Source of the DNA: Robiginitomaculum sp.
GTDB taxonomy: Bacteria; Pseudomonadota; Alphaproteobacteria; Caulobacterales; Maricaulaceae
DNA: 64,000 nucleotides
Assembly (NCBI GenBank): GCA_030949705.1
Contig: JAUZSF010000024.1
Location: 1-64,000, forward strand
Direction: 5' to 3'
Shown: positions 35,452 through 42,430 of the stretch, piece after piece
Layout of the letters: each line of letters starts with the position of its first letter
Position numbering within the stretch: position 1 is the first letter of the stretch
Translations under genes and position numbers: made by a program
Notes under the pieces: model-generated
Database searches by the model: none
What the model was told of the DNA's origin: nothing
What the model saw: only the letters and a program-made list of their open reading frames with translations

Positions 35452-36498
35452 TTAAGCGTCTTTTTCTTTGCCTTTGGCCTCTTTAGGCTCGGCCTTGGTT
35501 TTTGGCTCCGCTTTGGCTGCTGGCTTTTCTACTGCCTTGGCATCCGCTTTTTCTTCGGCCTTGGCTTTTGGTTCCGCCTTGGCTTTGGTTGCCGCTTTTT
35601 CGTCTACCTTGGCTTCGGCTTTTTTCTCGGCCTTGGCCTTTGGCTCCGTCTTGGCTTTGGCCGCTGGTTTTTCTTCTACTTTGGCTTCGGCTTTTTCCTC
35701 GGTCTTGGCCTTAGGCTCTGCCTTGGCTTTGGCTTTAGGGGCTTCTACCTTCACGGCCAGCTCAACCGGCTCTTCAGCCGCACCCAGATCAACACCCAGA
35801 CCGGCCTGGGCATCAGCCATGCCGTCCAGCACCGCGTCCGCAATTAGGTCGCAATAGAGCGCGATGGCCCGGGTCGCATCATCATTACCCGGAATGGGGA
35901 AATCCGCATCCGCAGGATCACAGTTGGTATCCAGCACAGCAACCACAGGAATGTGCAATTTGCGCGCTTCGGCCAAGGCAATCACTTCTTTGGTCGTGTC
36001 GATGATGAACATCAGATCAGGCACGCCGCCCATATCCTTGATACCGCCCAGCGAGCGTTCCAGCTTGTCCTGCTCACGGGTGAGCTTGATCAGTTCTTTT
36101 TTGGTCAGGCCGGTTTGTGCATCCTCGGCCAACAGACCTTCCAGATCACGCAAACGCTTGATGGAGTGCGAAATGGTGGTCCAGTTGGTCAGGGTACCAC
36201 CCAACCAGCGGTGATTGATGTAATATTGTGCACAGCGTTTAGCGGATGCAGCGACCACTTCGCTGGCCTGGCGTTTGGTGCCGACAAACAAGATCCGGCC
36301 GCCTTTGGCCGCCACTTCGCGGACCTTGACCAAAGCCTGGTGCAACAACGGGACCGTCTGTGACAAATCCAAAATATGAATGTTTGAACGAACCCCAAAA
36401 ATATAGGGTTCCATACGGGGATTCCAGCGGTGTTTCTGGTGTCCAAAATGCACGCCTGCTTCCAAAAGCTGACGCATGCTCACCTCAGGTAGAGCCAT
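35452..36498 (-). CDS. rpsB: 30S ribosomal protein S2 with long Lys/Ala/Glu repeat tail
   Basis: Small-subunit protein S2. The start at 36498 ([20 protein letters not shown]) is the family start with AAAGGA upstream; longer in-frame extension is spurious. The S2 domain covers residues 1 to about 235 with [18 protein letters not shown] and [13 protein letters not shown]. After it comes a tail of about 95 residues, nearly all Lys, Ala, Glu and Pro. Within the tail residues 257-328 are three tandem units of 24 residues (72 bp each), beginning [24 protein letters not shown] and [12 protein letters not shown]. Total 348 residues against about 240-260 in most bacteria. Confidence 0.94.
35515..35730 (-). 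repeat. Three 72-bp tandem repeats in the rpsB 3' end
   Basis: These encode residues 257-328 of S2 as three 24-residue units built on K-A-K-[AT]-E-P-K-A-K-[TA]-E. The units differ at several positions, so they are not a very recent duplication. A fourth, partial unit follows ([12 protein letters not shown]). Confidence 0.75.
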
Positions 36499-36673
36499 AT
36501 TCTTTTTCCTTTTCCGGTTCGCCTCCACAGGGGTTGTCCGCGAAGGCGGCACCGGATGGATGAACACGAATGCGTCCGTGCTCCCCGCCCCTGTGTGCGT
36601 GGTGCGCGCCTTATAGGCACCCCTCGCATTCTTGGCAAGCGCCAGTTTCAGGCAATAACACCTGTAAAACGAC
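36499..36673 (-). promoter_or_regulatory. rpsB-tsf promoter and leader
   Basis: Read on the minus strand, TTGCCA (36633-36638) and TATAAG (36610-36615) are separated by exactly 17 bases, a good housekeeping-type promoter. Transcription would start near 36603, giving a leader of about 100 bases before the rpsB ATG. The leader is GC-rich and may fold, but I see no recognisable riboswitch. This supports rpsB-tsf starting its own transcript apart from dnaE, 36 bases upstream. Confidence 0.6.
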
Positions 36674-39600
36674 CTAGGGGCTACTATGAATTTCCAGGGC
36701 ATCGCGCACCCCGGCCATGGATTTTAGCGCGCGCCGGGCCGCATTATCCGCCGGCCATACCCCTTCGGCCTGAACCTCAACCTCGCAACCATTTGGGGCT
36801 TCGAAAACCAGGTTCAAACGGCGCAAGGGCACATTTTCCCGTCCCCGCAAGGCCTCCAGACAGGCCTTCACCGCCTCGGCCTGATCGCTAGCCTTTAGCA
36901 ATACGCGCAAATCACCCGTTTTTTCGGCAACCAGGGCCTGCAAAGGCTCAATCGAAATGAGCTTCAACCGACTATCACCGCCGCCGCCTTTATCCACCCG
37001 GATATTAGCCAGCACCGGCGTACCCGCCACCAGCATTTGGCCGCTCGTCTCCAGAACTTCCGGGGGAGCCAGTACCTCACATTCGCCGCTGGCATCAGAA
37101 AAGGTAACAAAGGCAAACCGGCCGCCGCGCTGGTTTACCCGCTCCCGCTTGGTTCGCACCACCACGGCCAGGCGCAATGAGCCCCCCCTGCGAGCCAGCC
37201 TTTGTGCCATTTCCCCCACCGGCGTTACGCCCATGGATTTGATATTTTGGGCAAAGGCATCAATGGGGTGACCAGAAAAATAAAATCCGATGGCCGCCAG
37301 TTCTTCCTGCAACACCCGTTCAGGCTCCCAGGGTTCCGGCTCCGGCAAGGCAGCCTGGCCAACATCGGGGGCATCATCCCCAAACAGCCCTCCTTGCGCC
37401 GACTCGCGCTCCTTGGCGGCAAGCGCGGCATGGGCCAGCAAATGACTGGCTGCACAAAAGGCTTTATGGCGATTGGGTTCCAGGGAATCAAAGGCCCCGG
37501 CCCGGGCCAGATTTTCCAATGCACGCTTGTTGATGGCCCGTGGATCCACCCGTTTTGCAAAGTCAAACAGATCTTTATACGGGCCGTTTTTCAGGCGCTC
37601 CTGTACCACCGCTTCCATGGCGCTGCTGCCGACATTGCGCACCGCCCCCAAGGCATAAATAATTTTGCCATCTTCAACGATAAAATCAGACAGGCTGCGG
37701 TTAACATCCGGTCCGCACACCTCCACCCCCTGCCTACGGGCATCCAGAATGAAACCGGCCAGCTTGTCCGTATTGGTGATATCCAGGCTCATCAGGGCGG
37801 CCAACAGTTCAACCGGATAATGCGTTTTCAACCAGGCGGTCTGATACGATACCAGCGCATAGGCAGCCGAGTGCGATTTGTTAAACCCATAGCCGGCAAA
37901 CTTGTCGACAAGATCAAAGATATATTCAGCCTGATCGTCCTCGACGCCATTGGCCACCGCGCCGGCAACAAAGCGTTCCCGTTGTGCCTGCATTTCGGAT
38001 TTGATCTTTTTACCCATGGCCCGGCGCAATAAATCGGCCTCGCCCAACGAATAGCCGGCCAGCACCTGGGCAATTTGCATCACCTGTTCCTGGTAAATGA
38101 TCACTCCATAGGTTTCCGCCGTAATATGAGTGATCTTGTCGTGCAGAAATAACGGCTCTTCGTGGCCATGCTTGCAGGCCGCATATTTGGGAATATTTTC
38201 CATCGGACCCGGTCGATAGAGGGCCACGATCGCAATAATATCTTCAAAACAATCTGGCCGGGCCTTGCGCAACACATCACGCATGCCTGGGCTTTCCAGC
38301 TGAAAAATTCCCACTGTCTCGGCCCGGGCCAGCAAATCATAGGTTTTTTCATCGTCCAGAGGCAGATTATGTATATCCACCTCGACCCCGCGCGCCGCCA
38401 GAAAAGACACCGCCCGGTCGATCACCGTCAGGGTTTTAAGGCCCAAAAAATCAAATTTGACCAGCCCGCTTTTTTCCGCCCATTTCATATTAAACTGTGT
38501 TGCCGGCACATCAGAGCGGGGGTCACGATAAAGCGGTGATAATTGCACCAAAGGCCGATCACCAATCACCACCCCGGCAGCATGGGTTGAGGTGTTCCGG
38601 TATAACCCTTCAAGAGCCAGGGCCGTATCCAGCAATTGCGCCACATCCTGATCATCATCACGGGCCTGTTGCAAACCGGGTTCCGCGGCAATAGCCTCTT
38701 TTAGCGTGACCGGATTGGCAGGATTGCTGGGCACCAGCTTGGCCAGCCGGTCCACCAGACCCAGAGGCAATTGCATAACCCGGCCAACATCACGCAATAC
38801 CACACGGGCCTGCAAGGTACCAAAGGTGATAATCTGGGCCACCCGGTCCTTGCCATATTTGCTGCGCACATATTCGATGACTTCACCGCGTCGCTCCTGG
38901 CAAAAATCAATATCAAAATCGGGCATGGACACCCGTTCCGGATTGAGGAAGCGCTCGAACAACAGACCAAAACGCAAGGGATCAAGCCCGGTTATGGTCA
39001 ACGCCCAGGCAACCACAGAGCCAGCACCGGAGCCCCGGCCCGGGCCCACGGGAATGCCCTGGCTGTTGGCCCATTTGATAAAATCAGCCACGATCAGAAA
39101 ATAGCCGGGAAACCCCATCTGGTTGATGATGGAAAGCTCGTGCTCCAACCGTTCCCAATAGGCTTCCTCGGGCGCGGCCAAAACGATATTGGCCAAACGC
39201 TCTTTCAGGCCATTGCGGGCCTGAATGGCCAGCTCTTCGGCCTCATCCACCCCTTTGCCGTCGGTAAAATTGGGCAGGATCGGTGCGTGAGTATGGGGAC
39301 GATAATGACACCGCATGGCCACCAAAGCGGTGTTGCTGATCAGTTCGGGCAAATCCTCAAAGCGTTCCGCCATCTCTCTGCCGGATTTAAAATAATGCTC
39401 GGGCGTAACCCGCATGCGATCCGGCACAGATAAATAAGTGCTTTGGGAAATACACAATAGCGCATCATGGGCCGCATACATTTCACGATTGGCAAAATAT
39501 GGCTCGTTCGTCGCCACCATGGGCACCCCATGGCGATCCGCCCAATCCAGCAAAAATGGCTCGCTGTGTGCCTCTTCGGAGCGGCCATGACGTTGTATCT

Positions 39601-40126
39601 CGACAAAAAAGTTATCGCCAAAAGTGGAGGCCATGGCATCCAGATGCTGTTGAGCCTGCTCTACATGCCCCTCATGCAGCAATCGGTTTGCCATGCCATC
39701 AAAACCGCCGCTAAGGGCAATCAGACCATCAGCATGAGCACAAACGTCCTGCCAGGTCACATGAGGCAGATCGGCCGGGTCCACTTCGAGAAAAGCCCGG
39801 GAACTTAGCGCCATCAGATTGAGATAGCCCTGTTCACTGGCTGCCAGAAGGGCAACATTACCCAAGATTTCACTGACTTGGGCGTTTTTGCCCCCAGGTT
39901 GGCCCAAAGCAAGTGTAAGACCGATCAGCGGCTGAACGCCCGCCTCGGCCAGCGTTTCAGAAAATTCCAGCGCCCCAAAAAGATTGTTTACATCGGTCAG
40001 GGCCAAAGCCGGCATCTGGTGTTTTAGCGCCAGATCACGCAGGCCTTTGATCTCAACGGCCCCTTCCAGCAGGGAATAGGCAGAACGGCATCGCAAGTGC
40101 ACGAAGGGCAATGAAGCGGTATCCAT
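36674..40126 (-). CDS. dnaE: DNA polymerase III alpha subunit
   Basis: Replicative polymerase, 1150 residues, full length. An N-terminal PHP domain ([31 protein letters not shown]) is followed by the polymerase palm with the catalytic PDFDIDF near residue 400 and [17 protein letters not shown], fingers, [23 protein letters not shown], a helix-hairpin-helix region and an OB fold ([26 protein letters not shown]). It is the DnaE1 type, not DnaE2. It sits 54 bases downstream of the SOS-boxed small ORF, so a damage-induced transcript might run into it. Confidence 0.96.
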
Positions 40127-40180
40127 AATGTCCCCTCTCTCTGCTCATACCTGATTCCCGTCCACAGCTTAGCGCGTTCC

Positions 40181-40273
40181 CTAGCCGCCGAGAACCATGG
40201 ACCATGCACCAACCAACAGGGTCAGGCCAGCCAAAACAGAAAGGGCGGCCGCTTCTCTTAATATATCACGCAT
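40181..40273 (-). CDS. Small membrane protein, SidA-like SOS-induced division inhibitor candidate
   Basis: A 30-codon ORF too short for most gene finders. It begins MRDILREAAALSVLAGL and ends SMVLGG, with a single hydrophobic helix of about 18 residues and a short charged N-terminus, so it would sit in the inner membrane. GGAG lies 7 bases before the ATG. A perfect alphaproteobacterial SOS box, GTTC-N7-GTTC, is at 40294-40308, 20 bases upstream of the start. The only characterised protein I know with this combination is SidA of Caulobacter, a 29-residue LexA-controlled inhibitor of FtsW/FtsN. Homology is inferred from size, topology and regulation, not from alignment. Confidence 0.6.
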   Translation of the reverse strand: MRDILREAAALSVLAGLTLLVGAWSMVLGG

Positions 40274-40413
40274 AACAATCTCCATTCATCAATGTTCCTG
40301 TTATGTTCTTTCATGTTTTGTTCCCGTCGTCAAGGGGTATTCTTCACCGATCCCCTCAATCGGTTCACCACGCGTTATTTCAAGCCTGGAAGGATGCCGC
40401 CATAATGGCCCAC
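40274..40413. other. Intergenic region between lolD and the small SOS ORF
   Basis: Besides the SOS box it holds a weak 6-bp inverted repeat (ACCGAT and ATCGGT near 40346-40365) after the lolD stop, without a U tract. AT content rises between 40260 and 40325, consistent with a promoter. Confidence 0.4.
40294..40308. promoter_or_regulatory. LexA SOS box GTTC-N7-GTTC
   Basis: The plus strand reads GTTCCTGTTATGTTC, an exact match to the direct-repeat operator used by LexA in alphaproteobacteria. On the transcript strand it lies between a TTGACG hexamer (40328-40333) and the start codon of the small ORF at 40273, so bound LexA would cover the promoter -10 region. The next gene on the other side, lolD, ends at 40414, so the box serves the small ORF. 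Confidence 0.72.
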
Positions 40414-41118
40414 CTAGCGGGCAACGGCTTTACCATCCTGCATCACCATCACCCGATCCATATAAGTTTGCAGGTCATGATTATGTGTCGCCACCAGCGC
40501 CGCCACCCGTTCGATACGCACCAGATCAAACAGACTTTGGAACACCGCCGCCGAGGTATTGGGATCCAGATTACCGGTGGGTTCATCCGCCAATAGAATC
40601 CGTGGCCGGTTGACCAGCGCCCGGGCAATGGCCACGCGCTGTTGCTCGCCGCCGGACAATTGCGAAGGCTGGTGTTTCAGCCGGTCCGACAGGCCCATAA
40701 TGTCCAACAGGCGTTCAGCCTCGCGCCGGGCCAGGCGCACCCCCTCGCCGGCAATGCGCAGCGGCATGGCCACATTGTCCAACGCGGTAAATTCGGGCAG
40801 CAAATGGTGAAATTGATAGACAAAACCAATGGCATTGCGCCGCACCGCGGTGCGTTCGTTATCTTTCAGGGACAGGCATTCCTGTCCCTCAATCCACACT
40901 TCGCCCTCATCGGGTTTTTCCAGCAATCCGGCGGCATGTAGCAAAGTGGATTTACCAGAGCCGGACGGCCCGATCAGGCCAACAAATTCGCCCGCATTGA
41001 TATCCAGATCCACACCGGAAAGTACATTCAGAACGCTGGTCCCGGACGGATAGCGGCGCACGATATTGCGCAAACGCAGCACCGGCCCACCCTGGCCCTC
41101 ATGCCCATAATCATTCAT
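40414..41118 (-). CDS. lolD: Lipoprotein-releasing ABC transporter ATPase LolD
   Basis: ATPase of LolCDE, which extracts outer-membrane lipoproteins from the inner membrane. 234 residues. Walker A is GPSGSGKST, the signature LSGGEQQRVAIARAL, Walker B RILLADEPTGNLD and the switch His in LVATHNHDL. It overlaps lolC by 8 bases (ATGAATGA). Confidence 0.94.
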   Translation of the reverse strand: MNDYGHEGQGGPVLRLRNIVRRYPSGTSVLNVLSGVDLDINAGEFVGLIGPSGSGKSTLLHAAGLLEKPDEGEVWIEGQECLSLKDNERTAVRRNAIGFVYQFHHLLPEFTALDNVAMPLRIAGEGVRLARREAERLLDIMGLSDRLKHQPSQLSGGEQQRVAIARALVNRPRILLADEPTGNLDPNTSAAVFQSLFDLVRIERVAALVATHNHDLQTYMDRVMVMQDGKAVAR

Positions 41119-42430
41119 AGCGCAGGGCCTCCACCGGATCGAGGCGCGATGCCCGCCAGGACGGCGGCAGGGTGACCAGAATGGACATCACAAAGCCAAA
41201 GCCCGCAATGACCATCACCTCGCTCCATTCGACCTTGGCCGGCAGGCGGGCCAGCTCGTAAACCTCGGCATCGAACAGGCGTTCACCCGGATTAAAGATC
41301 GCAAATGCCCATTGAATGACATCCTGGATAGGGTCGATATAGATGGCAAAAAGAATGCCCAGCACCAACCCGGCCAATGTGCCCATCCCACCTATGGCCG
41401 CCCCGGCCATGATGAATATACGCATCGCCGCCCCGCGGCTGGCCCCCATGGTGCGCAAAATGGCGATATCGCGGCTTTTGTTTTTAACCAGCATGACCAG
41501 GCCGGAAATGATGTTCATCACCGCAATGGCGATAATCAGCATGAGGATCATACGCATCAACATGCGCTCTACTTTGAGCGCGGTTACATAGGTCCGGTTA
41601 CGGTCTTTCCAGTCATCAATCAGGATCGGCATGGCCGCTGCGCGGGCGATCTCCAGACGAATGGGAATGGTGTTAAAAGGATCATCAACACGAATTTCGA
41701 TATAGTCCGGCCGGCCACCCCGGCTGAAAAACAGTTCGGCCTGGGACAGCGGCATATAGATAAACGCCCCATCATAATCGGCCAGACCCATCTCGAAGAT
41801 GGCGCCGACGCGATAGAGCTTGGATCGCGGCGAGGAGCCAAACGGGGTCATATTGCTGGAGCTGAAGGAAAGAAGTTTCAAATCATCGCCAACACTGATG
41901 CCAAATTTTCGCGCCATCTGAACACCAATAACGATTTCATTGCCGCCATGGCGCCCCTGCCCAAACTGATCCAGATCCCCCTCAACCAGCTTGTCAGCCA
42001 CCAGGGGAATATCACGCAAATCTTCTGGCTTGATGCCAAACACGACGGCCAGAGCCGCGTCCCCACCCCGATTGGACAACGCCGCCGCCTGCCCGACGAC
42101 CATAGAGCGCGCCGATGTCACATGGTCCAGCTTGGCCAGACGCTGGCGTAAGGGCTCTATCTCTTCGGTATCAACCCCGGTGGTCTGGACAAATATATGC
42201 CCCTGGGACCCCATCATGATTTCGAAAATTTTATCGCGATAACCGTTCATCACCGACATCACAATAATCATCACCGCCACGGCCAACATGATACCGATAA
42301 AGGAAATGGTGGTAATCAGAGACACCCCGCCTTCGGCCTTTTTGGCGCGCAAATACCGCCAGGCGACCGTACGCTCGAAAGCGCTAAAGGGGGCCGCCCC
42401 GCGCCGTGAAAGGGAGGACGGCTCGCTCAT
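41111..42430 (-). CDS. lolC: Lipoprotein-releasing ABC transporter permease LolC/LolE
   Basis: Membrane subunit of the lipoprotein release system. 439 residues with one N-terminal helix (about 35-60), a large periplasmic domain of about 230 residues and three C-terminal helices, the MacB-type layout. The cytoplasmic coupling segment [22 protein letters not shown] is at the start and [14 protein letters not shown] follows the second helix. One permease gene is present, so the complex is probably a homodimer-type LolF arrangement as in many alphaproteobacteria. Overlaps proS by ATGA. Confidence 0.93.

Follow-up and report, generated by a model that had tools for sequence, protein, structure and literature searches.

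A 30-codon open reading frame (ORF) just upstream of dnaE in Robiginitomaculum sp. very probably encodes a SidA-type division inhibitor, a divergent homologue of Caulobacter SidA that occupies the same place before dnaE. Caulobacter SidA halts cell division after DNA damage. Homology to SidA is proposed because of the ORF's place, its size, the operator before it, and the similarity of the peptide profiles. The window referred to below is the whole stretch of DNA that was analyzed, 64,000 nucleotides (nt) long, and coordinates without a locus prefix are positions within it.

The ORF lies on the minus strand and runs from an ATG at 40273-40271 to a TAG at 40183-40181 (40181 to 40273, stop included). 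Its translated product is 30 residues long, MRDILREAAALSVLAGLTLLVGAWSMVLGG. A ribosome-binding site, GGAG, stands six bases ahead of the ATG on the same strand (40280 to 40283). A longer form of 34 residues, starting from an in-frame ATG at 40285, was considered and rejected, since its extra codons are not conserved among relatives. The 30-residue start was chosen because MRD, MKD, or MKE is conserved there and the codons before it diverge. The best 17-residue Kyte-Doolittle mean of the peptide is 1.97, and AlphaFold2, run on the single sequence, gave one helix covering residues 2 to 29 with a mean pLDDT of 95. In size and shape the peptide resembles SidA, being very short (SidA has about 29 residues) and made of a single helix, and an inner-membrane location is predicted. 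Pfam had no model for any of the small peptides scanned, no structured RNA of a known kind was found at the locus, and phage records gave no match at E values up to 1. An earlier note on this DNA had described a 30-codon ORF with one transmembrane helix, a GGAG site, a perfect GTTC-N7-GTTC element 20 bases before the start, and transcription toward dnaE; all four were recovered.

We searched 41 genomes, its own and 40 relatives, for the peptide. It was found in 16 of the 17 other genomes of the same genus and in one sister genus; the genus member that gave no peptide match (G005) is 87% complete. Residues A10, L11, S12, W24, L28, G29, and G30 are invariant over the 18 aligned copies, 17 from the genus (its own included) and 1 from the sister genus (L018). 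GGAG occurs no more than 22 nt from the start in 15 of these 18 copies and is absent from L006, L016, and L017. The proportions of synonymous and nonsynonymous sites that differ (pS and pN) were 0.32 and 0.015 in the comparison with L002, whose peptide is identical and whose DNA is different, 0.14 and 0.023 in the comparison with L003, and on average 0.61 and 0.19 over 136 pairs. Judged by these sequence comparisons, the small ORF is a real gene under purifying selection. The earlier note had held that loss of the frame or of the GTTC box in close relatives would count against its reading; the frame is kept in the 16 genus genomes just mentioned, and the box is present in every aligned copy. 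Beyond the genus and the one sister genus, nothing convincing came from the single-sequence search, so a profile was needed to find more distant relatives. Seventeen of the 23 profile loci that we inspected are beside dnaE and six (L035, L045 to L047, L049, and L050) look like chance; a long weak tail was left unsorted.

The curated model for SidA is NF033228 ("cell division inhibitor SidA"), an NCBIfam equivalog with a cut-off of 35 bits. It matched all 17 of the Caulobacteraceae peptides scanned, with a best E value of 7.9e-19. When 140 genomes of the order were searched with it, 17 matches exceeded the cut-off; all were in Caulobacteraceae (family f3 in our labeling; f1 is the window's own family, and both belong to the Caulobacterales), and all 17 lie less than 200 nt ahead of a dnaE match. 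Curated SidA is therefore the dnaE-linked ORF. Published gene tags point the same way: sidA of Caulobacter crescentus is given as CCNA_02004 (PMC10769358), dnaE as CC1926 and lexA as CC1902 (PMC1839093), and lexA also as CCNA_01979 (PMC11535069). An equal offset of 77 between the two tag series would make dnaE CCNA_02003, in accord with sidA as CCNA_02004. Within the genus Caulobacter, the profile matched 72 of 75 genomes, 70 of those 72 once, and among the genomes with a completeness of 90% or more and a contamination of 5% or less it matched 60 of 60. One Caulobacter genome has a second, weaker SidA-like stretch (G038:C3:315102-315185, minus strand), which lies in a frame of 132 codons and scores 28.5 bits with NF033228, below the cut-off.

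The named Caulobacteraceae loci, the best 80 of 534, give the same picture of this family. A membrane ORF of 27 to 31 residues precedes dnaE in 78 of these best 80, and it has exactly 29 residues in 54 of the 78. A perfect box lies within 150 nt in 66 of the best 80 loci, and 12 of the 78 ORFs have no perfect box. These counts are not fully independent, because some named and unnamed loci come from one organism (L060 and L081, for example). The ORF's recurrence upstream of dnaE in related genomes, which the earlier note had proposed as a check, is thus borne out here and in the further families described below.

The window peptide falls outside this curated group. NF033228 did not match it, either in the 34-residue form (E up to 1) or in the 30-residue form (E up to 10). 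Nor did the model match any of the 25 sequences of alignment A3 (E up to 10), any locus at the dnaE place in 28 genomes of family f1 (genome search, E up to 1), or any of the 16 peptides of alignment A4, which come from f5 and other orders. The window gene is a distant SidA-type relative and not a member of the curated group. The earlier note's view of it as a SidA-type protein stands as regards place, size, operator, and profile match; the curated NF033228 cut-off is not reached. One A3 sequence matched a twin-arginine signal model with an E value of 0.0022, which we took as chance.

Profile-profile comparison carries the link to SidA across this gap. Against the Caulobacteraceae profile, hhalign gave 94.8% for the window's genus and 96.8% for family f1, and these percentages have to be read alongside the scores because probabilities for 30-column helices are soft: one column shuffle (A1 versus shuffled A2, genus pair) reached 85.8%, with a score below the real one. 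None of 60 column shuffles and none of 60 shuffles confined to the hydrophobic core scored as high as the real comparisons, 28.2 for the genus and 35.4 for f1; the reversed profiles scored 11.6 and 9.8. Identity to the first sequence of the Caulobacter profile is about 30% over 23 to 24 columns. The f1 profile compared with a profile of twelve peptides from other orders gave 97%, and none of 60 shuffles was as good. The peptides in alignments A2, A3, and A4 were picked by hand, and the peptides of f46, f120, and f127, which have both box and ORF, were omitted from A4 as unlike the rest. Short hydrophobic helices are easily reinvented, and DinQ- and TisB-type peptides have another membrane target. 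That the window ORF encodes an SOS-induced membrane peptide which acts like SidA without descending from it, or which has some other membrane target, would agree with the blindness of NF033228 to the window peptide and with the 85.8% shuffle. We nevertheless regard this as unlikely, given that place, size, and operator are those of curated SidA, that a helix start of the form [RK]-[DE]-x-x-A-[LA] recurs across the groups, and that no shuffle equaled the real profile score.

If the ORF is a divergent sidA, its position is the expected one, directly upstream of dnaE. The minus strand reads, in order, lolC/E, a lolD-like gene, the 30-codon ORF, and dnaE. The gene for the DNA polymerase III alpha subunit, dnaE (36674 to 40126, minus strand; NF004226, 1420.1 bits), begins 54 nt 3' of the small ORF. 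The upstream neighbor (40414 to 41118, minus strand) is a lolD-like ABC ATPase gene, whose best match, TIGR02211, scored 261.7 bits, below the cut-off of 307.75; beyond it is a lolC/E permease gene (41111 to 42430, minus strand; TIGR02212, 420.7 bits, above the cut-off). At the far end of dnaE, the window has an ORF for ribosomal protein S2 (35452 to 36702, minus strand) that is 416 codons long and has an extended C-terminal part; it matched a "sunset domain" S2 variant with 295.9 bits versus a cut-off of 710.

So close a spacing on one strand, with no terminator-like site found in 40060 to 40430, could also mean that the small ORF serves to regulate dnaE, as a leader peptide or an upstream ORF whose product does nothing in itself. 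The 3' end of the ORF is constrained at synonymous sites in a way that suggests an overlapping regulatory element. Among 12 hand-picked sequences of the 17 from the genus, codon identity given the same residue is 0.77 for codons 22 to 30 versus 0.45 for codons 2 to 21. These last codons, together with GCTAAGCT after the stop, form a candidate dnaE promoter (40166 to 40210, minus strand), to which we assign that function tentatively; the GCTAAGCT region may resemble the Caulobacter -10 element. Against a dnaE leader, residues are conserved along the peptide, and the gene also exists away from dnaE. Of the 18 loci found by the single-sequence search, 15 have dnaE within 1.5 kb and the same number have lolD that close. 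In L009, L012, and L015 dnaE is missing from this range and the ORF and its operator remain, with box, GGAG, and frame all in place. A leader function is for these reasons very unlikely. In L009 the small gene precedes an aspartyl protease gene. In L012 and L015 (match at 1501) the small gene and operator are away from both dnaE and lolD, and the next gene is a convergent pyridoxal-dependent decarboxylase gene.

The predicted LexA operator of the small gene is a perfect GTTC-N7-GTTC (GAAC-N7-GAAC on the coding strand) at 40294 to 40308, with the sequence GTTCCTGTTATGTTC, 20 bases ahead of the start. By sequence, then, the ORF has in its promoter the operator that SidA has. The number of such boxes was rejected as evidence in its own right: the 64-kb window has 2 perfect boxes versus 1.32 expected, and the genome has 38 versus 65 for the reversed pattern, so that the count is not above chance in either. 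Because the count is uninformative, the weight rests on place and conservation. A perfect GAAC-N7-GAAC lies 14 to 36 nt ahead of the start in all 18 aligned copies. The reading under which the ORF is a chance frame next to a LexA box whose target is dnaE could appeal to a box no rarer than chance, but it is scarcely credible for a frame that is under purifying selection, that is present in nearly all members of the genus searched, and that has a box 14 to 36 nt ahead of it even at the loci without dnaE.

We surveyed 20 of the 38 boxes in the genome, picked by eye; the other 18, two of them in the window, were left out. Five of the 20 are at SOS-type genes, namely before dinB, recA, yifB, and lexA and in the gap between ssb and uvrA. 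Ten others are inside ORFs and five are beside other ORFs, with a family scan that covered some of the neighbors only. From the motif's presence at lexA, recA, dinB, and uvrA we infer that GTTC-N7-GTTC is the LexA operator in this genome, as the earlier note had assumed of the box. Another box of the same genome (L162:1517-1531, on contig C17) has the same 15 bases as the dinB box and stands about 210 nt before an ORF on the minus strand (L162:473-1303). This ORF matched no Pfam model (1e-3) and no NCBIfam model (1e-6) and is possibly an SOS gene of no known family.

A second, imperfect LexA-like element, GAAC-N7-GAAA (40309 to 40323), adjoins the perfect box upstream, and a putative -35 box, TTGACG, follows farther out (40328 to 40333, minus strand). 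TTGAC is present in all 17 genus copies but is absent from the sister-genus copy (L018). TTGAC followed after 3 to 8 nt by GAAC-N7-GA was found in 16 of the 18 copies (16 of 17 in the genus, the exception being L011; it is also missing from L018), and the order in the genus copies is TTGAC, GAAC-N7-GA, perfect box. This arrangement suggests that the imperfect element is an auxiliary operator and that the promoter would be covered by a strong LexA site and a weaker one. A scan with the sigma-70 consensus gave no full promoter at the small ORF, and no -10 box was assigned for the window copy. Six loci with Brevundimonas titles (L097, L101, L113, L115, L124, and L154) have a tandem operator ahead of the small gene, made of two perfect LexA boxes spaced 18 bases apart.

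To see how far the arrangement extends, we compared 263 regions, each comprising at most 600 nt ahead of dnaE. This count leaves out L051 (wrong orientation), L181 (the window), L211 (a genome of the same genus that had been covered before), and L237 to L239 (repeats of L063, L052, and L077); L051 was included in the f3 rows of the joint-HMM search. The 109 regions from other orders were among the better-scoring dnaE matches and not a random draw. We counted the regions in which an ATG-started membrane ORF of 24 to 50 residues follows GAAC-N7-GAAC at a distance of up to 70 nt. There were 71 among the 111 regions from Caulobacteraceae, 22 among the 43 from other Caulobacterales families, and 15 among the 109 from other orders (11 of 74 families). 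Controls with wrong spacings gave 0 to 16, 0 to 2, and 0 to 1 regions in the same three groups; the excess of 16, at a spacing of N3 in Caulobacteraceae, fits the tandem boxes seen there. A membrane ORF of this size, box or no box, is present in the last 400 nt of 94 of 111, 29 of 43, and 20 of 109 regions; the corresponding reverse-strand counts are 16, 3, and 2.

The joint HMM matched 20 of 20 regions of family f1 with E values of 2.1e-4 or better; ten of these regions were outside the model, and six had no perfect box. It matched 6 of 8 regions in f5, 2 of 12 in f4, and 0 of 5 in f2. The other orders gave 15 matches at E < 0.01, 13 of them to sequences in the model. The reverse strand gave nothing below an E value of 7.9. 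In f46, f120, and f127, where box and ORF also occur together, the model does not detect the peptides, and these may not be related to the others. As sampled by these searches, the gene family is wide but patchy, being absent before dnaE from most of the other-order families. In the literature, no title or abstract opening that we found dealt with SidA outside Caulobacter or with a link between SidA and dnaE, which is weak evidence of absence.

By homology with SidA, we infer damage induction, a membrane topology, and a target for the peptide (FtsW/FtsN). LexA bound at 40294 to 40308, and probably also at the weaker adjoining site, would keep the gene silent. DNA damage would activate RecA, LexA would be lost, and the 30-residue peptide would be made. 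It would insert as one helix, with its basic N terminus in the cytoplasm and its C terminus outside, and would bind the late divisome complex of FtsW, FtsI, and FtsN, keeping synthesis of the septal wall switched off until the DNA is repaired. The genome contains the peptide and its operator, as well as lexA and recA. It also has an FtsW/RodA-family gene, a precondition for the proposed block and no more, which scored 276.1 bits with the ftsW model, below the curated cut-off of 337.5.

Other SOS-induced division inhibitors are YneA in Bacillus, SosA in Staphylococcus, and SulA in Escherichia. These three are likened to the window peptide by description only, and SulA differs in its target, FtsZ. 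SidA of C. crescentus (CCNA_02004; NF033228) is the nearest parallel: it has 29 residues versus 30 in the window peptide, one helix, a LexA-type operator, a place directly before dnaE, and a similar profile. It differs in its low identity (about 30%) and in matching NF033228; in addition, the window's genus has an invariant W24 and finishes in LGG, and the C-terminal end of the Caulobacteraceae peptides is a different one. PMC4211646 describes SidA as a 29-residue inner-membrane protein that binds FtsW, and sidA and yneA as genes unrelated to sulA; YneA is reported to interact with FtsW (PMC13396833). DidA of C. crescentus, as described in PMC4211646, is likewise a small membrane division inhibitor that responds to DNA damage and acts on the FtsW/I/N complex. 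Unlike SidA-type genes under LexA, DidA is induced independently of SOS; it is likened to the window peptide by description.

There is perhaps an even chance that the SidA-type peptide beside dnaE represents an ancient module of the alphaproteobacteria that predates Caulobacter and reaches beyond curated SidA. Operator, peptide, and polymerase gene would then have come together before several orders diverged. Taken together with that reading, and on the same even terms, the peptide would have been overlooked through its small size and its divergence. Were the module ancient, the damage-induced transcript may continue into dnaE, coupling the supply of polymerase to the block of division. Across the 140 searched genomes from the order, NF033228 exceeds its cut-off in Caulobacteraceae only, and other families now have a candidate inhibitor that can be found by searching the DNA ahead of dnaE for a LexA box together with a helix of roughly 25 to 47 residues that starts with K/R-D/E. 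The peptides found in this way offer natural sequence variation for mapping how so small a peptide might inactivate FtsW, FtsI, and FtsN.
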